A stretch of 64,000 nucleotides of DNA from Clostridium pasteurianum DSM 525 = ATCC 6013 (lineage in GTDB: Bacteria > Bacillota > Clostridia > Clostridiales > Clostridiaceae): positions 2,324,384-2,388,383 of the forward strand of contig NZ_CP009268.1 of the NCBI RefSeq assembly GCF_000807255.1. The letters are read 5' to 3'. A model generated the notes under the pieces. It saw nothing but the letters and a program-made list of their open reading frames with translations, searched no databases and was not told the origin of the DNA. Below, one piece after another: positions 18,192 to 56,317 of this stretch (position 1 is the stretch's first letter; every line of letters starts with the position of its first letter). Made by a program: the position numbers and the translations under genes.

Positions 18192-21100
18192 ATGGGATTA
18201 AAAAATTATAAACTTAACGATAACAGAATTTATTTTGACGGAGGATATGTACAAGTTAAACACTTTAATATAGTTGCCATACCTACTAAAATAGTATATA
18301 ACAATGAAGGAGATCATGATCCAAATGGATTAATGTACGTTTTAAAAGAAGATGAAAACACTCTAATAGAAGCAGTTAAAAAAAATCCATTTAAACCTGT
18401 AGATATTGTTAGTCCTTTAGTAATAAGAGCAAATTTAGGTGATATTTTAATTATAGATTTTGAAAACAAATTGAACAGACCTGTGTCTATTCACATTCAA
18501 GATATAGATTATAATGTTTTACGTTCAGATGGCGCCGCCATAGGTTTTAATCCCGATACTACAACAAGAAACAAAATAAGATATAGATGGGTTGCTGACA
18601 AAGAAGGTATATTCTTATTTAATGATATGGCTGATACCAGAAGTTCAGAAAAATCTACAAATATTCATGGACTCTTTGGTGCACTAATAGTTGAACCTGT
18701 AGGTGCAACCTGGACCGATCCTGTAACAGGTAATTATATAAAAAGCGGCTTATATGCAGATATACACCATCCAGCACTTCCTGACTTCAGAGAGTATGTT
18801 ACAATATTTCATGATGAACCGGAAATAAAAGATATTAATGGCAATCAGCCTATAAATCATGAAACTGGAATGCCTGAAGCAACAATGCCAATAAATTATA
18901 GAGCAGATCCTATGAGGAATCGTCATCCTGATGGTACAGGAGGTGTTGGCGAGGAAGTAGCCTTGAGTTCATGGACTTTTGGTGATCCCTCTACTCCAGT
19001 ATTACGTGCCTATAAAGGTGATCCTGCTAAATTTAGATTAATTCATGCAGGGATAAAGGAAACCCACGTATTTCATCTTCATAATCATCAATGGAAATTG
19101 GACACTAATGATCCTAAATCCACTATAATTGACTCCATATCCTTTAGTCCTCAAGAAAGCTTTACTATTGAACCTTTATTTGGAGCTGGAAGCTTAACTG
19201 GATGTATAGGTGATGTTATATGGCATTGTCATCTTTATCCTCATTTTGCTGAGGGAATGTGGGGACTGTGGAGAATACTTGACCGTCTGGAAGATGGTAA
19301 AAGTCAGCTTCCAGACGGCAGTTGTGTACCTGCTCTGATTCCACTGCCGGATAGAACACCTCCATCATCCCAAGATGATGACCATCCTGGATTTCCACGA
19401 TTTATAGCTGGAGAGGTTGGTAAAAAGCCTTTTAAACCACCACTAGGAATAGTCAATGGCAGAGGTCCAACACCTTTAGAAAAAGCAAATTTTGTTCCAA
19501 ATGCAATTTCAGGAGCTTTATATTCTGGCACCTGTCCAGCAGATGCAGTTACTAAAGTTTTTGAAATAGTAGCTATTCAAGTTCCTATAAAATACAACAA
19601 TGCAGGATGGCATGACCCTGAAGGAAGAATATTTGTTCTAAAAGAGGATGAAGATGCAGTTAGAAATGGCAAAAAATCACCCGAACCTTTTGTTATAAGA
19701 GCAAATGTAGGAGATTGCATAGAAATTAGGCTTACAAATAAACTTCCTGAAGCAATAGGTGGAAATGCCTTTCAATTATTAACCAAAACCACAGAAGTTG
19801 GCTGGCATATACACTTAGTTAAATTTGACGGCATTGTTTCTGACGGTGGTGCTAATGGATGGGATAATGATTCATCTGCTAATTTTGGTGATACTCTTAT
19901 TGAACGATTTTATGCCAATACAGAACTGAGAACAGTATTTTTCCATGATCACTTATTTCCTAGTACTCATCAACAGCATGGATTATTTGGTGCATTGATT
20001 ATTGAACCCTCTAACGCCACTTTTCACGATCCTAAAACTGGTAAAGAAATAAAAAGTGGAACTCAGGCAATAATAAAAAGACCCGGTGAACCTGACTTTA
20101 GAGAGTTTGTCCTTGTAGTTCATGACTTTGCACTTCTTTTTGATAAAGATGGTAAGCCTTTAAATCCGCCACCTTTTCCAGGATCTCAGGAGGATCCAGG
20201 AGTTATGGGTATAAATTATAAAAATGAGCCTTTTCAATTTCGCAAAGGCGATCCCGCTTATGTTTTTAGCTCCTATGTACACGGTGATCCCGTTACACCT
20301 CTTCTTGAAACTTATGAAGGAGACCCAATACGAATAAGGTTATTTGATGGTGCACAGGAAGAACAACATTCTTTTAATCTCAACGGCTTAAGATGGAGAA
20401 AAGAACCAACATATGCAGTATCTCCTATTATTCAAGCACAAACTTTAGGTATATCAGAAGCCTTCAATATAGAAATAGATGAAGATTATAAAAAAGGGGA
20501 TTATTTATATTATTTAGGAGGAATAGATGACTTATGGCTTGGTTTATGGGGCATATTAAGAGTTCATAAAGAAAGGGTTGATCATCTACTGCCTCTTGAG
20601 GATAGACCTTTACCTCCAATTAGAACAAAACCCTTACCTTGCAAAACAGGTAATCCACCGCTTAAAGCAAAATGCCCTGCTCATCCATGTCTTAAAGATG
20701 CTAACACAAGAAAATTTGATGTTGTTGCCATACAAAAGGATATTGTATACAATAAATTTGGAGATCATGATCCAAATGGCTTGATGTTTGTATTAGCAGA
20801 ACATGAAAAGGCAATTATGGCTGGAACTATGAAACCTAAACCATTAATATTAAGAGCAAATGCGGGAGATTGCATAGAGGTAACCTTAACTAATCATATT
20901 TTTAAACCACTGGTACAGGATAACCACCCAGAAGTTCCTGTAGAAGCTCCCTTTCCTCCATCAAATAGAGTTTCTCTTCATGCACAATTACTAAAATACG
21001 ATGTTTTAAACTCCGATGGAGCAACAGTAGGTTTTAACTATGATCAAAGCATTGCTCCTGGTGAAAGTATAACCTACAGATGGTTTGCTGACTCAGAATT

Positions 21101-21926
21101 AGGTACCTGTACCCTTACTGGCTTTGGAGATATACGAAACCATAGACATCACGGTCTCTTCGGTACTATTATAATTGAACCTACAGGCTCTAAATATATT
21201 AATGCAAAAACTGGTAATGAAGTAAAAAATGGTTATCTAGAAGAAATAGTGATATCCAATCCAGGCATACCAGACTTTAGAGAATTTGTAGTGTTTATGC
21301 AAGATGGTATAAGCTTATATGATAAAAATAATAAGCCAATACCAGATCCCGTTGACGGAGGACATGGTGCAGCTCATCCAGATCCAGCTAACCAAGGACA
21401 GAATTCAGCTCATTTCGACCCTGTTGACGAAGGGCATGATGTACCTCGTCTAGATTTTGAGGACCAAGGTCAAAAGGGAATTAACTATAGATCTGAACGC
21501 TTTGAGAATCACTTAAAAAAAGATCCTAGAGTACATCTTGTAATGAGCTCAAAAATTCATGGTGATCCAGCCACGCCTGTTTTTAAATCTTATCCTGGTG
21601 ATCCTGTAAGAATAAGGCTCCTTATGCCAGCAGATAAACCAAGGAATCACAGCTTTGTATTGCATGGGCATTCCTGGAAAGCTCAATATTCCGACCCATT
21701 TTCTAATATTATATCTGTACAAGGAGCAATAAGTATCGGTAATGTATTTAATATAATCCTAGAAAATGGAGCGAACCAAAATCCAGGTGATTATTCCTAT
21801 AGATCTGGAATATTCCGTTGGGATGTAGAATTGGGCATGTGGGGAATATTAAGAATTTTTGATAAAATTCGTGATGATTTAATAACTATAAATGAAAATG
21901 ATAATTTTTATAAAAAATACAATTAA
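18192..21926 (+). CDS. giant triple-repeat (six-cupredoxin) multicopper oxidase
   Basis: 1244 residues built from three copies of a two-cupredoxin module, beginning near residues 25, 457 and 843 (each opens with a VAI..I.YN...HDP.G..FVL pattern). Copper motifs are spread over modules: HVFHLHNHQW (292-301) and HCHLYPHFAEGMWG (345-358, type 1 Cys346, His351, Met356) in module 1; WHIH (538-541), FFHDH (583-587) and HQQHGLFG (593-600) in module 2. Module 3 and the second halves of modules 2 and 3 have lost most ligands. Size and layout resemble MnxG-type manganese oxidases. There is no signal peptide. Strong ribosome site AAGGAGGGG and a terminator at 21932-21988, so it is monocistronic. An oxygen-using oxidase is unexpected in an anaerobe; a spore-surface or metal-detoxifying role is inference. 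Confidence 0.85.
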   Translation: MGLKNYKLNDNRIYFDGGYVQVKHFNIVAIPTKIVYNNEGDHDPNGLMYVLKEDENTLIEAVKKNPFKPVDIVSPLVIRANLGDILIIDFENKLNRPVSIHIQDIDYNVLRSDGAAIGFNPDTTTRNKIRYRWVADKEGIFLFNDMADTRSSEKSTNIHGLFGALIVEPVGATWTDPVTGNYIKSGLYADIHHPALPDFREYVTIFHDEPEIKDINGNQPINHETGMPEATMPINYRADPMRNRHPDGTGGVGEEVALSSWTFGDPSTPVLRAYKGDPAKFRLIHAGIKETHVFHLHNHQWKLDTNDPKSTIIDSISFSPQESFTIEPLFGAGSLTGCIGDVIWHCHLYPHFAEGMWGLWRILDRLEDGKSQLPDGSCVPALIPLPDRTPPSSQDDDHPGFPRFIAGEVGKKPFKPPLGIVNGRGPTPLEKANFVPNAISGALYSGTCPADAVTKVFEIVAIQVPIKYNNAGWHDPEGRIFVLKEDEDAVRNGKKSPEPFVIRANVGDCIEIRLTNKLPEAIGGNAFQLLTKTTEVGWHIHLVKFDGIVSDGGANGWDNDSSANFGDTLIERFYANTELRTVFFHDHLFPSTHQQHGLFGALIIEPSNATFHDPKTGKEIKSGTQAIIKRPGEPDFREFVLVVHDFALLFDKDGKPLNPPPFPGSQEDPGVMGINYKNEPFQFRKGDPAYVFSSYVHGDPVTPLLETYEGDPIRIRLFDGAQEEQHSFNLNGLRWRKEPTYAVSPIIQAQTLGISEAFNIEIDEDYKKGDYLYYLGGIDDLWLGLWGILRVHKERVDHLLPLEDRPLPPIRTKPLPCKTGNPPLKAKCPAHPCLKDANTRKFDVVAIQKDIVYNKFGDHDPNGLMFVLAEHEKAIMAGTMKPKPLILRANAGDCIEVTLTNHIFKPLVQDNHPEVPVEAPFPPSNRVSLHAQLLKYDVLNSDGATVGFNYDQSIAPGESITYRWFADSELGTCTLTGFGDIRNHRHHGLFGTIIIEPTGSKYINAKTGNEVKNGYLEEIVISNPGIPDFREFVVFMQDGISLYDKNNKPIPDPVDGGHGAAHPDPANQGQNSAHFDPVDEGHDVPRLDFEDQGQKGINYRSERFENHLKKDPRVHLVMSSKIHGDPATPVFKSYPGDPVRIRLLMPADKPRNHSFVLHGHSWKAQYSDPFSNIISVQGAISIGNVFNIILENGANQNPGDYSYRSGIFRWDVELGMWGILRIFDKIRDDLITINENDNFYKKYN

Positions 21927-27582: not shown

Positions 27583-28908
27583 TTAAATCTGTAAAGATAA
27601 AAGCTTAGTATAGATATCTTCAATTAAATTCAGTCCACCTCTATATCCTACATAGGTATGATTTAATATAAGCCTGTCTGTTATAGGAAGTCCTACACTT
27701 AAATGTAATCCATTTATTTCATTAGCTATGTCTACATCCCAGGAACTTCCCAGTATTAAGGGATAAGTATTAATTTCATATTTACTCAATTTTTCATTTA
27801 TAACTCCACCATCCTGTGAAAAAGTTACATCAGAAGTTATTCCCCTATCAAAGTCTTTGAAATATTCTATAATATTATCTTTAAACTGATCTGGTACATC
27901 TTCCGTAATAAATTGATGCCCTGGTAAAAGTCCTAAATCATTAACCAAAAATTTAGTAAATCCAAGAGTATAAGAAGAGTCGTCTATTATGAAAAACTTT
28001 TTTGGCACTTCATACCTTGATGCTACAAGAAGTTCACCAGAACGAACCAAATAATGATAAAATTCCTCTTCTTTTTCCTCAATAATCTTATCCACTAATT
28101 CTTTATCAACTCCAGCAAAATCAGCTACCGTTCTTAAAAACTTACTAGTTTCTACTCCTCCTACAGGAAGTACTGGATAATGTAAATATTTAGTTCCAAA
28201 CTTTTTCTCTAAAAGCTTAGCTGACTTTAAACCTATCCAAGGTGAAACTACGAGATTAAATTCTGCCTTAGGTATGTTGTTTATAGCATTTATACCTCCG
28301 CTATTATGACCAAATAGTATATTTGCTTGAAATCCAATACTTTTCAGTAATTCTTTAATTTCATTCAAATCACCTTCCCAAAATGGATCGTGAGTTGGTA
28401 TTGATGCAAATACATTTACAAGTCCCTTAATCTTCTCCTCAGAAGGTTTCAAATATTGATTTATTATGGCCTCTAAAACCAATTCATGCCCTTTATAGGC
28501 ATCTCCTTTAAATCCTCCTGTTTCTGCATATACTATAGGTACTCCTCTTTCAGCAAACTCTTTTACTATGCTGCCCACATCGTCTCCCACTATATCTGAA
28601 ATACATCCAGTAAGTACTACAAAGAAATCTCCATCCATAACTTTTAAGGTTCCTTCAATAAGCTTTCTTAATTTTTTTTCGCCACCAAATACCACATCTT
28701 TTTCAATTAAATTGCTGCAAGGTATAGAATCTCCACCTGCATACCCTGAGCCTTGATTTCCTCCAGAAGAAGCCATGGCCGTAGTAAGTTTTGCACTGCA
28801 GCCTGGACCTGCATGTACAATTGGAATAGCTCTTTCTATAGCAATAACTGTCTGTTGAGCACCTAGTGCACAAAAATGTCTCGGTTCTTGAAGTATTATT
28901 TCACTCAT
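27583..28908 (-). CDS. nitrogenase-like component 1, beta (NifK-type) subunit, pair 1
   Basis: 441 residues of the NifK/NifN/BchB superfamily. The three P-cluster-type cysteines are in place: C13 in HFCALGAQQ, C37 in GPGCSAK and C102 in LTGCISDIVGDD. It lacks the long N-terminal extension of true NifK and is shorter than NifK (about 450-520). Its start overlaps the stop of the alpha partner (TAATG), so the two are coupled and probably form a heterotetramer. No nifH, nifB or nifE/N is near, so the reductase must be encoded elsewhere. It is a group IV-like nitrogenase homologue (a group that includes methylthio-alkane reductases and uncharacterised clostridial proteins); the substrate is unknown. 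Confidence 0.8.
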   Translation of the reverse strand: MSEIILQEPRHFCALGAQQTVIAIERAIPIVHAGPGCSAKLTTAMASSGGNQGSGYAGGDSIPCSNLIEKDVVFGGEKKLRKLIEGTLKVMDGDFFVVLTGCISDIVGDDVGSIVKEFAERGVPIVYAETGGFKGDAYKGHELVLEAIINQYLKPSEEKIKGLVNVFASIPTHDPFWEGDLNEIKELLKSIGFQANILFGHNSGGINAINNIPKAEFNLVVSPWIGLKSAKLLEKKFGTKYLHYPVLPVGGVETSKFLRTVADFAGVDKELVDKIIEEKEEEFYHYLVRSGELLVASRYEVPKKFFIIDDSSYTLGFTKFLVNDLGLLPGHQFITEDVPDQFKDNIIEYFKDFDRGITSDVTFSQDGGVINEKLSKYEINTYPLILGSSWDVDIANEINGLHLSVGLPITDRLILNHTYVGYRGGLNLIEDIYTKLLSLQI

Positions 28909-30368
28909 TAAACTTCACCTCCCAAAAATTTAAAGGCATTTTGCTTTAACCACCAATCTGTATAGGGAAGTTTACTGTGTTTTGCAATATTTTCTACAAA
29001 CATAGAGTTACTTATAGTATCTAAGATAATCTCTCCATAATTTAATAATCCCTGATAACCTATAGCAAAATGTTCATCTCCAATTTCTAAAGAAGGAATA
29101 CCTAATTTACTTGCCCATATGGTACTAGCATGCCTTGTTATAAATAAATCCGGCTTTAAATTATACAATTTATTAACTAGTTCAAAAGATTGCTTATTAC
29201 AAATCGACAGCTTAAAATTTCCATAATTATCCACAACATGTTTTAAACTGTCCGATCTTTCGTCGCTATTATCAAATTTAGCATCATGATGCCAAGTACA
29301 ACCTCCTACAAGGTCCATGCCTAATTCTTTAACTATAGACATCATTCCATGTCCATGGGCAGCTCCGGCACCTATATATACCTTTTTCCCCCTTAATTTT
29401 TCTTTCAATTCTGTAAGCTTAGGGGCTATTCTGTCCTTCTCTTCAGCTATTAGCTTTTCAACTTCGTCCTCCTTATGGACTATCCTCCCAAGTTCTCTAA
29501 ACCAAGCATCTGTACCAGCTATTCCATAAGGTGGTGGTGATTTTACTTCTGGTACTCCAAAATGCTCTTCAAGCCCTGCTGCAAAATAAGTGCCCAAAGT
29601 AGCACATATTTGTACGGTAGCAGCAGCTTCAGAAATATGTGATAGTTGTTCAATAGTAGTGTAAGGAACAAGATAGTTTACTTTAAGTCCTAGTCTTCCA
29701 AAAAGTTCTGTAAAAATATCTTTCCCCTGAAAGTTAATTATGTTAATTAGATCATTTCTTTTATTTACAGCTGGTTTTACTATTTTTCTAAGTATTCCAT
29801 GATAAGCAGCATCAAATCCCAATGCCCAAATCTTAGATCTAAAGCCTTCACAAATTATAGTAATAACTGGTATACCTATTTCTTTTTCTGCTTTATTGCA
29901 TACAGCTTCCACATCATCTCCAATTATTCCCGATGCACAAGTAGTGGTTACAAAAATTGCTTTAGGATTAAATCTCCTCTTGGCCTCTTTTATTGATAGC
30001 TCTAATTTTTTTGCACCACCATATATTGTATCTTTTTCAGTTAAATTTGTGTTTATATAGTGTAGATTTCTAATGGGAAGCTTTCTTTTCTTTCTTCCTG
30101 ATCTTCCCACCATATTTCTATTTGGTATATCTCCGCTGCAACCTGCTGGGCCATGTTCTACCACCGCAGCATCTTGTATATATACAAGCTGATTTTTCAC
30201 TTGATTTGCACTACAGGAAGTACATTGTGAAAAAGATCTATCTATATCCTTCAAACTACCATCATGAGATTTTTTATATAATTCTTCAGCATCACCGCTA
30301 TATCCTGAAACGGAACCTAATCTCTTTTCTCTAAGAGGTGCTGCAGTATCTTTTAAATTAATACTCAT
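28908..30368 (-). CDS. nitrogenase-like component 1, alpha (NifD-type) subunit, pair 1
   Basis: 486 residues of the NifD/NifE superfamily. P-cluster-type cysteines C49/C52, C77 (GPAGCSGD) and C144 (TTTCASGIIGDD) are present. C255 (QICATLGTYFAAGLEEHFGVP) aligns by spacing with NifD Cys275, the ligand of the active-site cofactor. The position of NifD His442 is Gly430, with a His three residues on. So it likely binds a P-like cluster and a cofactor but is not canonical MoFe nitrogenase. First gene of a two-gene operon with a strong promoter and a terminator-bearing leader. Ribosome site AAAGGAAG. Confidence 0.8.
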   Translation of the reverse strand: MSINLKDTAAPLREKRLGSVSGYSGDAEELYKKSHDGSLKDIDRSFSQCTSCSANQVKNQLVYIQDAAVVEHGPAGCSGDIPNRNMVGRSGRKKRKLPIRNLHYINTNLTEKDTIYGGAKKLELSIKEAKRRFNPKAIFVTTTCASGIIGDDVEAVCNKAEKEIGIPVITIICEGFRSKIWALGFDAAYHGILRKIVKPAVNKRNDLINIINFQGKDIFTELFGRLGLKVNYLVPYTTIEQLSHISEAAATVQICATLGTYFAAGLEEHFGVPEVKSPPPYGIAGTDAWFRELGRIVHKEDEVEKLIAEEKDRIAPKLTELKEKLRGKKVYIGAGAAHGHGMMSIVKELGMDLVGGCTWHHDAKFDNSDERSDSLKHVVDNYGNFKLSICNKQSFELVNKLYNLKPDLFITRHASTIWASKLGIPSLEIGDEHFAIGYQGLLNYGEIILDTISNSMFVENIAKHSKLPYTDWWLKQNAFKFLGGEV

Positions 30369-30609
30369 ACTTATTTCTTCCTTTCTATATTTTAAAATAT
30401 AATCTTATTAAATTTTAAGAACAAAAAAAGACTTTGAGCGGAATTATATTACTCCACACAAAGCCTCTGGTTTTCCAGTTAGCATTTGCTTAAATATTAA
30501 GATTTCCATTTAGTAAAATTGTCTAAATCAATCATTCTCAAAGTTCCTATATAATAAAGTCACTTTAGGAAATTAAATATTACAGACTCTAATCATAGGA
30601 AAATATATT
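30369..30609 (-). promoter_or_regulatory. structured 5' leader of nitrogenase-like operon 1 (attenuator or riboswitch candidate)
   Basis: About 240 nt between the predicted transcription start and the ATG. It contains TTCCTA/TAGGAA and GATTT/AAATC helices, a hairpin CTGG-AAAA-CCAG, then an intrinsic terminator at 30423-30466. The small hairpin, extended by GCT/GGC pairing, uses bases of the terminator's 5' arm, so the two are partly exclusive, as expected of a switch. No known riboswitch class was recognised. Confidence 0.6.
30423..30466 (-). terminator. terminator inside the leader of operon 1
   Basis: AGGCTTTGTGTGGA pairs with TCCGCTCAAAGTCT (14 positions, one mismatch, two G-U) followed by seven T on the minus strand, 55 bases ahead of the coding sequence. 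Its place before the gene points to transcription attenuation. Confidence 0.8.
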
Positions 30610-35414: not shown

Positions 35415-36515
35415 TTAACTTTTAGGGTTTAATATTCCATCTAAATCAGAATCTGATAAATCATAATCATAAAAAGTTTTATAATACTCTTTTGTCTTTG
35501 CCTTAATATCTAGACTTTCAAATAAATCTGGATGAAGATTTTTTGCAAGCCATAAAGGTTGTAATGCACCTTCAGCACTTCTTACAGACCATAGATACAC
35601 TCCTTTAGCTTCAAGATAGACTTTTTTATTCTTTACAGCTTCTAGTGACTGCCATTGATTTGGAGTACTAGGATTCATAATATAATCGTACATATCTCTA
35701 CTTCTGACCGTAATTACATCTGGCTGATTTTTATATAAAAATTCAAAATCGACACTTATATTTGCCGAATTAGCTGGAGCACTAGGAAATTTTTCTGCTG
35801 CTATATTTACACCTCCAGCTGCTTCTATGTATGAACTATTTATATCATTGGCTGCTATTGTAGTAATTGCCCCTTTAGGTGAACCAGTAGCTTCAAAAAC
35901 TTTAACTTTTGCAGCTGATTTTGTTTTATCTCTAACGTATTTCAAATTGTTATCATAGTATTCATTAAATTTTTTAGCTCTTTCTTCACTTTCTTTTCCA
36001 AGAACTTTTCCCACCATACTGACAGTATTTTTTATATCTTCAGGAGTTTCTAGCTTTAATCCTAGAAATGCTATTTTAGACTCTTTTAACTTTTCCTGGT
36101 CTGCCAAACCCGTTGTACCACCAAAAACTACTTGAGGATTTGTTTGAAGTATAGTTTCTACATTTAATGTCCCGCCTCCTGAACCTGTATATGCAGCAGG
36201 AATTTCTTTTATCCTAGGATACACTTTAGGGAAAAAGCCCTTTTGCACGCCTTCTGCTGTTGCTACCAGTTTATCTGCTCCACCTACTAATAAAACTACC
36301 TGATTTAAAGCTCCACCTGCTGCTATTCTATCAACTTTATATGGTATTGTTACATTATTTCCATTACCATCAACTACAGTCCTTGTTGACGGTGTTACTG
36401 TATTCTGATTACTTGAACTGCTCTTTTCCTTTCCACACCCTGCACTAATAACTGTTGTAATCATAACTATAATTAGTAATGACATAATTACAATTTTAGA
36501 TTTTAAATTTTTCAT
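35415..36515 (-). CDS. metal-chelate ABC transporter substrate-binding lipoprotein (PBP-2 / TroA-like fold)
   Basis: 366 residues: signal peptide with lipobox ISAGC (Cys27), a Ser-rich linker, then the helical-backbone binding-protein fold (TRTVVDGNGNNVTIPYKVDRIAA, ILQTNPQVVFGG, QPDVITVRSRDMYD, WLAKNLHPDLF). The family captures siderophores, haem, cobalamin, molybdate or tungstate for an ABC importer. No permease or ATPase gene is adjacent, so it is an orphan. The nearby Mop protein makes molybdate or tungstate a possible ligand, but this is inference. Ribosome site AAGGGGG. Confidence 0.82.
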   Translation of the reverse strand: MKNLKSKIVIMSLLIIVMITTVISAGCGKEKSSSSNQNTVTPSTRTVVDGNGNNVTIPYKVDRIAAGGALNQVVLLVGGADKLVATAEGVQKGFFPKVYPRIKEIPAAYTGSGGGTLNVETILQTNPQVVFGGTTGLADQEKLKESKIAFLGLKLETPEDIKNTVSMVGKVLGKESEERAKKFNEYYDNNLKYVRDKTKSAAKVKVFEATGSPKGAITTIAANDINSSYIEAAGGVNIAAEKFPSAPANSANISVDFEFLYKNQPDVITVRSRDMYDYIMNPSTPNQWQSLEAVKNKKVYLEAKGVYLWSVRSAEGALQPLWLAKNLHPDLFESLDIKAKTKEYYKTFYDYDLSDSDLDGILNPKS

Positions 36516-39153: not shown

Positions 39154-40449
39154 TTATAACTTATTAAATATGCAAGAAAAAATATCTTCTATAAAATTCA
39201 ACCCTCCTTCATATCCTATATAACTTTTATTGAGTATAACCTTATCAGACACCGGAGTACTTAAAGATAAAAAATATCCATTCAATTCAGATATAATTTC
39301 TTTATCCCAACTACTCCCTATTATCAATGGAATAAAATTTTCACTTTTTTCTTTTATATTTTTTATAATTATTTGTGAATCATCTGAAAAAATTACACAT
39401 GAATCTATTTTATTTTTTATATCCTCCTTGTAGATATTAGGGGGATTGTCTACTATATGTTGGCACCCTGGAATCATACCCAATTCATTTATTAAAAAAC
39501 TAGTAACACCTAATACATAACTAGATTCTCCTATAAGAAAAAAACGTTGTGGAAAAGAACTATCATACCGATTTAAAAGTTCAGTTAGTCTATTCATATA
39601 ATAATAAAATATTGACTCCTTTTTTTCTATATATTTATTTACTATATTTATATCCACATTACAAAATTCTCCAATGTCTCTTAAAAATTTACTTGATTGA
39701 TATGCTCCAATAGGTAATATTGAATAATGAATATATGGTGTTCCAAATCTTTTTTTTAAAAACTCCATAGTCTTTATACCTGTCCAACCAGATATCAATA
39801 TATTAAATTCAGCAGTTGGAATTTCACTCCATGAATTTACATTCGCAGAAAATCCAAATAAAGCATTTACCTCAAGTCCAATCTTCTCCAACATATTTTT
39901 CAAATTGTCTATATTACCGCTCCAAAAAGGATCTAAATAGGGCGGATTCACCCAAAGGTTTATTTTTCCCTTTTTAATTGGTAATTTTTTTGAAACAAAT
40001 TGTTCTATAATGGATTTTAATAGTAATTCATGTCCAATATAGGCATTTCCTTTATATCCTGCAGTATCCACATATACTACAGGTATTCCTTTTTCTTTAA
40101 ATTCACTAACTACAGCTTTTACATCATCTCCAGCTAACTGTACATTACACCCTGTGAATACTACATATAATTCTGCATCTACAAGTTTTACAGTACTTTC
40201 AATTAATTGTTTTATCCTATTTTCTCCTCCGTATATAAAATCTTCTCTATGGATATTATCATTTGGGATAAAACTTCCACCACTGTATCCAAAGCCCTGA
40301 TAACCATTACAATAACTCATTCCCTGATATAACCTCAAACAGCACCCTGCCCCTGAGTGAACTATAGGAACAGCTTTATTAATAGCCAATACACTATGTA
40401 ATGCACCAAGTTCACAAAAATTTCTAGGTTGAAATATAGTATTCTCCAT
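39154..40449 (-). CDS. nitrogenase-like component 1, beta (NifK-type) subunit, pair 2
   Basis: 431 residues, a paralogue of the 27583-28908 protein (shared ALNKAVPIVHSGAGCC, GFGYSGGSF, FTGCNVQLAGDD, GSSWDKEIISELNG patterns). P-cluster-type Cys C12 (FCELGALHS), C36/C37 and C101 are kept. The start MENTIFQPRN is chosen because AAGGTG, which is also the end of the upstream gene, precedes it by eight bases. It is translated with the alpha-type partner (5-base gap). It has more Asn and Ile than pair 1, suggesting faster divergence. Function unknown. Confidence 0.78.
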   Translation of the reverse strand: MENTIFQPRNFCELGALHSVLAINKAVPIVHSGAGCCLRLYQGMSYCNGYQGFGYSGGSFIPNDNIHREDFIYGGENRIKQLIESTVKLVDAELYVVFTGCNVQLAGDDVKAVVSEFKEKGIPVVYVDTAGYKGNAYIGHELLLKSIIEQFVSKKLPIKKGKINLWVNPPYLDPFWSGNIDNLKNMLEKIGLEVNALFGFSANVNSWSEIPTAEFNILISGWTGIKTMEFLKKRFGTPYIHYSILPIGAYQSSKFLRDIGEFCNVDINIVNKYIEKKESIFYYYMNRLTELLNRYDSSFPQRFFLIGESSYVLGVTSFLINELGMIPGCQHIVDNPPNIYKEDIKNKIDSCVIFSDDSQIIIKNIKEKSENFIPLIIGSSWDKEIISELNGYFLSLSTPVSDKVILNKSYIGYEGGLNFIEDIFSCIFNKL

Positions 40450-40454
40450 AATTT

Positions 40455-41849
40455 TTACACCTTTTTTAATAGATTTTCTCTCATCCACCATTCTCTGTAT
40501 GGTAATTTCGAATATTTATTTATATTTTTTATAAAGTTTTTATTACTAATTAAATCTAACAATCTTTGTGCAAATTGTAGCATACCTTTATATCCATAGA
40601 ATTCAAATTCATCTTCAATCCATAAGGTTGGTATGCCCATTTTAGCAGTCCAAGCTCGTAAGCTATAATGCTTTACAATCACTAAATCAGGTTTCATATG
40701 ACCAATAAAATTAATTAATATATATGCTTGATTAAAAGAAATCTTTACCCCTTGTAATCCATATAAATTTCCGCTTAATTCTTTTTTAAAAAAAGGCATA
40801 TCACTATTATCAAAAATCATCTTATACTTACTATCATAATCCATAATGTTAATATCTAAATCTTTCAACATCACTAATATACTCTTTTCATATCCGTATC
40901 CCATTATTATCGGCAAACACTTTATGTAATTTAATTTAATTTTAATTTCTTTTAATTTTTCCATGTATCTATTCTTATCATTAGAAATTATATTATGAAC
41001 TGAAAATTTTTCTTTAAACCATATATCAATTTCATCAAAAAAATTATCCGTAGCTTCTATTCCATAAGGTAAAGTTTTATTAATACAAGGTATATTGAAT
41101 TCATCTTTCAGCCACTCTGAAATATATTTGCTGAAACGATCTGGAGAAATTAACAGTGTACCCGATGCCCCTGACATTTTTTCCAAACACTCATACTCAG
41201 TATAACAAGTAATATAATTCCAATTAACCGGTATTTTATCAAGTATTTCCTTTATATCATCATTGCCAGTAAAATTTATAACATTATAAAATTTTTCACA
41301 AATATTATTATTTTTTATAAGTTTATTTAAATTTTTAGATTGTCCTAATTTAGCTCCAGAACTCCAGAATCCAGAATTATAGAGTTCACAAGTAATAATT
41401 ATTAACGGAATCGAATATTCATCTTGTATAGAATTAATGACATTTTGTATATCTAATGCTGTTATTCCAGATCCACAACTAGAAGTTATAAAAATAACTT
41501 TAGGATTAAAGCTCTCTATTGAACGATCTATTGCATTTTTTAATTTTTTATCAACATCAAAAATTACATCTGATTCCGTAATATTACTACTGACAAGTTT
41601 AGCATTTTTTATTGGTAAACCACGTTTTTTTAATCCTATTTTGAATTTAATATTAAAATCAATAAAAGAAGAGGCGCAACCTAGTGGGGAATGAATAATT
41701 ACTACACTATTTCTTATTGTAGATAACACATTAGATATTATAGGCGACTGACAATCAGCACACTGCATAAAAGATAAATTCTTACAATTTTCTGAATTTA
41801 ATTTTTCTTTGTCTTCACACATATCATTATCTATCCTTTCAAAATACAT
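40455..41849 (-). CDS. nitrogenase-like component 1, alpha (NifD-type) subunit, pair 2 (diverged)
   Basis: 464 residues related to the pair 1 alpha protein. It retains C30/C33 (QCADCQSP), C58 (SPLGCASS) and C125 (TSSCGSGI) of the P-cluster region, and the C-terminal KMGIPTLWIEDEFEFYGYKG block. The cofactor-ligand cysteine of NifD (C255 in pair 1) is lost: the spacing-equivalent residue is a Pro in LLISPDRFSKYISEWLKDE. The acidic GDD after C125 is also changed (ALD). It may be a scaffold, a degenerate enzyme or a protein with another cofactor. The start could instead be MCEDKEKLN, nine codons later. Confidence 0.72.
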   Translation of the reverse strand: MYFERIDNDMCEDKEKLNSENCKNLSFMQCADCQSPIISNVLSTIRNSVVIIHSPLGCASSFIDFNIKFKIGLKKRGLPIKNAKLVSSNITESDVIFDVDKKLKNAIDRSIESFNPKVIFITSSCGSGITALDIQNVINSIQDEYSIPLIIITCELYNSGFWSSGAKLGQSKNLNKLIKNNNICEKFYNVINFTGNDDIKEILDKIPVNWNYITCYTEYECLEKMSGASGTLLISPDRFSKYISEWLKDEFNIPCINKTLPYGIEATDNFFDEIDIWFKEKFSVHNIISNDKNRYMEKLKEIKIKLNYIKCLPIIMGYGYEKSILVMLKDLDINIMDYDSKYKMIFDNSDMPFFKKELSGNLYGLQGVKISFNQAYILINFIGHMKPDLVIVKHYSLRAWTAKMGIPTLWIEDEFEFYGYKGMLQFAQRLLDLISNKNFIKNINKYSKLPYREWWMRENLLKKV

Positions 41850-56114: not shown

Positions 56115-56317
56115 TAATATAAAATCCTACTGTACCGTATGATGAATTTAAAAGATAACCCGCTCTCAGCAGGTGGGCACTGCCTTCTTGCTTCTTGTTT
56201 TCATTTTTACAAATGAACATCATTCCACAAGAAGGGATAAGTTCCCTAAAAAAAAGTGCTGGGTCAACATAAATCCACTTCTCGAACACAGTAGGAATTT
56301 TATTTAATTGTTATTCT
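56115..56317 (-). ncRNA. ssrS: 6S RNA
   Basis: About 200 nt; ends are estimated. The closing stem TCCTACTGT/ACAGTAGGA is extended by AAAAT/ATTTT. The 5' part has TGTTCG after the stem, inner CTTCTTG/CAAGAAG pairing, and the 3' part has AGTGCCCACCTG, a sequence typical of Firmicutes 6S RNA. A TATAAT box (56329 to 56324) sits at the right distance upstream. The place next to aspS matches that of bsrA in Bacillus. 6S RNA binds and modulates the housekeeping RNA polymerase. Confidence 0.75.

Follow-up and report, generated by a model that had tools for sequence, protein, structure and literature searches.

A predicted Mar-family nitrogenase-like gene pair of Clostridium pasteurianum and the leader hairpin that it has in common with related operons

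Background

The closest described relative of the gene pair studied here is MarDK of Rhodospirillum rubrum (group IV-C; PDB 9FMG and 9D9U), a methylthio-alkane reductase acting on 2-(methylthio)ethanol, dimethyl sulfide and ethyl methyl sulfide. In MarD, Cys270 and His429 bind the [Fe8S9C]-cluster; His429 lies in an extended loop beside Arg428 and not at the place of NifD His442, and the authors of the structure remarked that an earlier sequence comparison had overlooked the His429 ligand because of its different location (PMC12552129). Cys73 and His194 of MarD were put at the active site in the same paper. The isethionate reductase IsrBHDK of Rhodobacter capsulatus is likewise a nitrogenase-like enzyme connected with the anaerobic use of organic sulfur; according to the residue account given for it, IsrD lacks two P-cluster cysteines and both cofactor ligands (PMC11423573). 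Genomes with many D/K-like pairs were noted before, with nine pairs in Syntrophobotulus and NflDK1-5 in Heliophilum (Dos Santos 2012 PMC3464626; PMC9147875); these reports on Firmicutes preceded any Mar structure from which the ligands could be read, and their passages on the pairs describe no shared RNA leader.

Results and discussion

The gene pair and its family

We analysed a stretch of 64 kb of the C. pasteurianum genome (the window), for which the original prediction had described two coupled genes of the NifD/NifK superfamily with all P-cluster-type cysteines. Both genes lie on the minus strand, the D (alpha) subunit of 486 aa at 28908..30368 and the K (beta) subunit of 441 aa at 27583..28908, with an overlap of one base between the stop of D and the start of K (TTTAATGAG). 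The two open reading frames are intact and match PF00148, and alignment to MarD and MarK recovered the six cysteines (Cys52, Cys77 and Cys144 in D; Cys13, Cys37 and Cys102 in K). Relative to the nearest orthologue (93% identity, in genome G149) purifying selection is strong on D (dN 0.035, dS 1.26) as well as on K (dN 0.035, dS 1.47), dN/dS being about 0.03 for both.

When compared with all PDB chains, D scored 492.7 bits to MarD versus 132.9 bits to the next relative, a nitrogenase, and K scored 426.5 bits to MarK versus 105.4 bits to the next relative; identity to the R. rubrum proteins over aligned columns is 48% (D) and 45% (K). An AlphaFold2 model of D (pLDDT 91), built from 35 relatives, superposed on MarD (9FMG) with a TM-score of 0.93 and an rmsd of 1.4 Å, versus a TM-score of about 0.66-0.71 and an rmsd of 4-9 Å for NifD, so that D is modelled with the MarD fold rather than the NifD fold. 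The tree comprised 75 D-type proteins, none of them NfaD or IsrD, and in it the Mar-like D proteins split from NifD, AnfD and NifE at 100/100. D falls inside a subclade of 11 rows (support 100/98) together with proteins of other Clostridium species, Pelosinus and one metagenome bin, and R. rubrum MarD is found in a separate clade of 11 rows (100/100) that does not contain it; the tree position of the long-branch rows (the second D of the window, L038 and L039) is unreliable. An NCBIfam scan of the pair returned sub-threshold nitrogenase models only and no family name. Placement of D was outside NifD and NifE rather than within NifDK or NifEN, and the Mar kind, which the original prediction had named as one possibility, was borne out by the tree and by the predicted structure alike. 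Judged by its sequence, the pair is a catalytic component of the MarDK family, in a subclade apart from R. rubrum MarD.

Cofactor site and substrate pocket

Alignment puts Cys255, Arg412 and His413 of D at the places of MarD Cys270, Arg428 and His429, and the MarD residues that match the ligands of D bind the P- and [Fe8S9C]-clusters (PMC12552129). Eight residues of D (C52, C77, C144, W181, C255, H360, R412 and H413) are invariant in 35 relatives, and MarD Trp195, Phe199, His375 and Arg428 are all conserved in D. The original prediction had set C255 at the position of NifD Cys275 and had noted a glycine at the place of NifD His442, with a histidine three residues further on; C255 does align with both MarD C270 and NifD C275, and the second observation is right as an alignment against C. 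pasteurianum NifD. However, the site had been called changed and credited with a cofactor of its own, and neither description is supported: the true second ligand is the Arg-His loop (R412-H413) as in MarD, and the site corresponds to the published Mar [Fe8S9C] site. The claim that the enzyme does not fix nitrogen is supported, as NifD Val70, Gln191, His195 and His442 are every one substituted and the pair looks unable to do so.

The pocket itself differs from that of R. rubrum MarD. At MarD positions 73, 194 and 374 all 11 members of the subclade of D carry Asn, Ile and Trp, whereas the R. rubrum-type clade has Cys (10 of 11), His (11 of 11) and Phe (11 of 11) at the same sites. Since this change runs through the whole subclade, the substrate is probably other than that of R. 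rubrum Mar. Elsewhere in the family, a Mar-like D encoded beside an ABC transporter (L038:8424-9917) carries Ala at the place of His429, with a His in the next position (SRAHG), which reflects either a shifted ligand or an alignment slip.

The description of the window by a single D/K pair was correct for that pair but passed over a second, divergent one. Its D-like subunit (464 aa, 40455..41849, minus strand) keeps the P-cluster cysteines, has Ser for Cys270 and has lost His375; its K-like partner (445 aa) lies at 39154..40491, also on the minus strand. One orthologue of this second D was found (67%, in genome G127), which is also devoid of the cofactor Cys270 and of His375. In G127 the orthologous pair is directly followed by a periplasmic binding protein resembling the one encoded at 35415-36515 of the window. 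The second pair, which lacks the leader element described below, may have a function different from C-S cleavage.

Host genome, Fe protein and cluster supply

C. pasteurianum is a classic organism for nitrogenase biochemistry. We searched its whole genome (4.35 Mb, one contig) and found 41 PF00148 matches, including 13 D/K pairs of the Mar family and an additional D, so that Mar-type catalytic pairs (13) outnumber nitrogenases (3) in this organism. Two of the pairs are MarDK orthologues (65/74% and 62/61% identity to R. rubrum MarD/MarK). The nitrogenases comprise a complete set of Mo-nitrogenase genes at 1.526-1.534 Mb (nifH, D, K, E and a nifN-B fusion), the NifD of which matches PDB 4WES/1MIO at every one of 533 residues, and two alternative nitrogenase sets. 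A degenerate PF00148 remnant extends across two open reading frames at C1:2095853-2097303 (L040:8854-10304; C1 coordinates are those of the window's genome).

As predicted, nifH and nifB were found nowhere in the 64 kb, and, unlike the R. rubrum genes, the pair has no adjacent marB or marH. The genome holds six full NifH genes, all of the Nif or Anf type and none of the MarH type, whereas Mar operons of other relatives do carry MarH-type Fe proteins. The window pair, if active, must therefore use a nitrogenase-type Fe protein, in line with the expectation that its reductase is borrowed from elsewhere in the genome. One of them, of canonical nitrogenase type (C1:3620193-3621014; L042:17194-18015), adjoins a Mar-family D/K pair, MetY and two NifX-like genes. 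Its product is 94-95% identical to the NifH of the Mo-nitrogenase and that of an alternative-nitrogenase locus and 51% identical to a MarH-type protein of a relative, with 558 bits to C. pasteurianum NifH (1CP2) versus 295 to MarH; service to Mar-family pairs is a possible role for this one of the extra nifH genes. In a search for NifB outside the window, the NifN-B fusion gave 464 bits and a NifB-like radical SAM protein of 326 aa, encoded among clustered Mar-family genes at 3.63 Mb, gave 288 bits (cut-off 343.65).

Neighbourhood of the pair and its orthologues

In C. pasteurianum, as in its closest relative G149, the pair is isolated, with unrelated genes on both sides, so that evidence from operons has to come from orthologues. 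The C. acidisoli orthologue (77% identity) heads an operon D-K-NifX-MetY-NifH, and a SAM riboswitch (90.7 bits) ends 76 bases upstream of its D gene. Elsewhere in the subclade and among wider relatives, the neighbours are MetY, CysK, NifH, NifB, NifX and MetNIQ- or Ssu-type ABC transporters, and in C. algifaecis, C. luticellarii and C. algoriphilum related operons are likewise preceded by SAM riboswitches. Such neighbours are uncommon by chance, given that C. pasteurianum has seven SAM riboswitches per 4.35 Mb. Upstream of the window pair neither a SAM riboswitch nor any other Rfam match was found.

The leader hairpin element

The leader between the upstream gene and D (AAUGCUAACUGGAAAACCAGAGGCUUUGUGUGG...CCGCUCAAAGUCUUUUUUU) contains two predicted structures on the minus strand: a hairpin element at 30457..30489 (P1 stem / RA / P2 CURG-A4-5-CYAG / A / GRC; 39.2 bits with covariance model R1) and an intrinsic terminator hairpin followed by a T-run at 30422..30466 (fold -25.1 kcal/mol, z = -5.4). 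The element alone folds at -10.9 kcal/mol (z -3.5), and the outer 3' arm of its P1 stem is the 5' arm of the terminator, so that the two folds are mutually exclusive. Formation of the hairpin would block the terminator, and a factor or ligand that stabilises the hairpin would thus turn the genes on. A candidate promoter at 30644-30616 was discarded, as the promoter scan of the region gave 15 hits, against 18.8 expected from shuffles.

The genome contains 21 copies of the core pattern CTRGN{4,5}CYAGAGRC and none of its reversed control. Over 29 sites and ten base pairs, 86.6% of the cells are standard pairs, with 33 double changes versus 16.6 (sd 4.0) in shuffles, none of 500 shuffles reaching as high. 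All main measures were lower for controls with slid partners than for the pairing of the element, part of this excess being expected as the structure was defined on the same sequences. Nothing in Rfam matches the element above the gathering score. The covariance model, of which the E-values are rough, was run on 208 Clostridiaceae genomes and detected the element in 47. Forty of the 208 encode a Mar-family D (E <= 1e-80), and 35 of these 40 have the element (Fisher p ~4e-24, kinship ignored).

In C. pasteurianum the element precedes 11 of the 13 Mar-family operons, eight of them at E below 1e-4 (among which the window pair, the true MarDK orthologue with 65/74% identity and a NifB-D-K operon) and the other three with poorer E-values that reach about 0.03. 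It was also found upstream of Ssu/NMT1-type transporter genes and of one molybdopterin oxidoreductase-like gene, and in relatives upstream of genes for D, NifH, NifB, NifX, MetY, CysK and transporters; the genes behind the element were labelled by BLAST against a local set, some Pfam scans and reading of the sequences. No match was found in the nif or anf regions or before the second pair of the window. A weak match beside eutVW-like genes (3232550, E 0.0096) raised the idea of an ANTAR/EutV-type regulator; we take the loop of the element, however, not to fit the published ANTAR hexaloop. In general design the element can be likened to the 'ABC-leader' attenuators of bacilli, terminator/antiterminator leaders that stand upstream of genes for sulfonate uptake (PMC2965389).

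Nine to ten core copies of the element follow each other in tandem at C1:845727-846179 (L188:7728-8180), mostly every 41-42 bases. Upstream of this array lies a short open reading frame with 12 Cys codons (with runs CCC and CCCCC), and downstream, beyond an inserted transposase gene, one with a conserved part of 154 aa that is nearly half Met plus Cys (C1:848030-848491; in G149 at L259:1661-2122). Smaller arrays, each of between two and five copies and preceded by a short Cys-rich open reading frame, were found in G149, G125, G132, G135 and G137, and the Met/Cys-rich frame lies downstream in G149, G132, G135 and G137, but not in G125. A comparable Cys-rich frame occurred in 59 of 1017 control windows, and the folded tandem array was no stabler than shuffles (z -1.2), so we propose no higher-order structure for it. 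The Met/Cys-rich protein has no relative in Pfam, NCBIfam or the PDB. It is present in seven of the 208 genomes, all of which have Mar-family pairs, with at least one element before each copy. Perhaps it serves as a sulfur store or as a sensor of sulfur status, and the array might hypothetically act as a decoy RNA gated by Cys.

Proposed function

Taking the family, ligands, fold, pocket change, genome context and shared leader read from the sequences together, we think it likely that the window pair is a Mar-family reductase, a D2K2 tetramer with a P-cluster and an [Fe8S9C]-cluster that receives electrons from an Fe protein encoded elsewhere and cleaves C-S bonds for sulfur scavenging under control of the leader switch. 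Cluster occupancy, reaction, substrate, choice of partner and direction of the switch are what we infer here. The iron-only [Fe8S9C]-cluster would sit on Cys255 and His413. Its precursor would be supplied by a NifB, for which the MarB-like protein at 3632439 and the NifN-B fusion are candidates, and electrons would be delivered by a nitrogenase-type Fe protein, the best candidate being the nifH at 3620193 that adjoins MetY and another D/K pair. The bond cut would be that of an organosulfur compound other than, or besides, 2-(methylthio)ethanol and dimethyl sulfide, and the thiol or sulfite set free would enter methionine or cysteine via MetY or CysK. Shortage of sulfur would switch the pair on through the terminator/antiterminator hairpin of the leader.

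A strict methylthio-alkane reductase, with the substrates of R. rubrum Mar, would explain why all cluster ligands as well as MarD Trp195, Phe199, His375 and Arg428 are kept and why the window pair and the true MarDK orthologue have the leader element in common. We nevertheless consider it unlikely, since the genome already contains two closer MarDK orthologues (65/74% and 62/61%), the pair lies outside the clade of R. rubrum MarD, and the active-site residues Cys73 and His194 are Asn and Ile across the subclade. We judge it just as unlikely that the pair is a sulfonate reductase working like Isr, which would release sulfite from alkanesulfonates imported by Ssu-type transporters, even though Ssu/TauABC- and NMT1-type transporter genes bear the same leader element and adjoin related pairs. 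Isr has only one of the three D-side P-cluster cysteines and no cofactor Cys (PMC11423573), whereas the window pair has all of them; going by these residues the pair is not an Isr, and only the type of substrate could be common to both.

The remaining two readings seem far less probable still. NifEN-like scaffolding, in which the pair would finish or carry the cluster for other Mar-family pairs, would agree with the few accessory genes among the 13 pairs and with the NifE and NifD models being the best NCBIfam matches, though far under their cut-offs (188 bits for NifE against 505). Such a role is very improbable, as the ligands of the buried site are identical to those of catalytic MarD, the nearest fold is MarD and not NifE, and in some operons the orthologue is the sole D/K pair (L079). 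The least credible of all is a group IV nitrogenase reducing N2, like the proposed NfaDK of Endomicrobium: such enzymes were reported (PMC11257099, PMC9147875), but this genome already has a Mo- and two alternative nitrogenases, the NifD residues Val70, Gln191, His195 and His442 are all replaced in D, neither the nif nor the anf regions gave a match to the leader element, and N2 is not reduced by Mar, which has identical ligands (PMC12552129).

If the window pair is indeed a Mar-family reductase for sulfur scavenging, the iron-only [Fe8S9C]-cluster would be the workhorse of a whole sulfur-scavenging toolkit and not of one enzyme. An Fe protein of nitrogenase type could then power a Mar-type catalytic component, and at least one of the six nifH genes would thereby gain a function. 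In anoxic soils, organic sulfur may also become a source of methane, ethane or ethylene through some Mar-family enzymes. The common RNA element makes the whole set testable together, as sulfur starvation should induce every gene behind an element. More tentatively, and with doubts that outweigh our confidence, we envisage the window pair as part of a sulfur-starvation regulon in which leader hairpins compete with terminators and are bound by a trans-acting antitermination factor. The array, on a transcript beginning with the Cys-rich short frame and ending with the Met/Cys-rich one, would be a decoy that soaks up this factor when Cys/Met is plentiful, and a Nif-type Fe protein and NifB would serve 13 exchangeable D/K heads, each set suited to different organosulfur compounds.

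Other features of the window

Two further features of the window were observed. A 6S RNA (72.8 bits) is located at 56120-56300 on the minus strand. At 18192-21926 an open reading frame of 1244 aa is present that appears, by eye, to consist of tandem multicopper-oxidase-like units, which are unusual for an obligate anaerobe.
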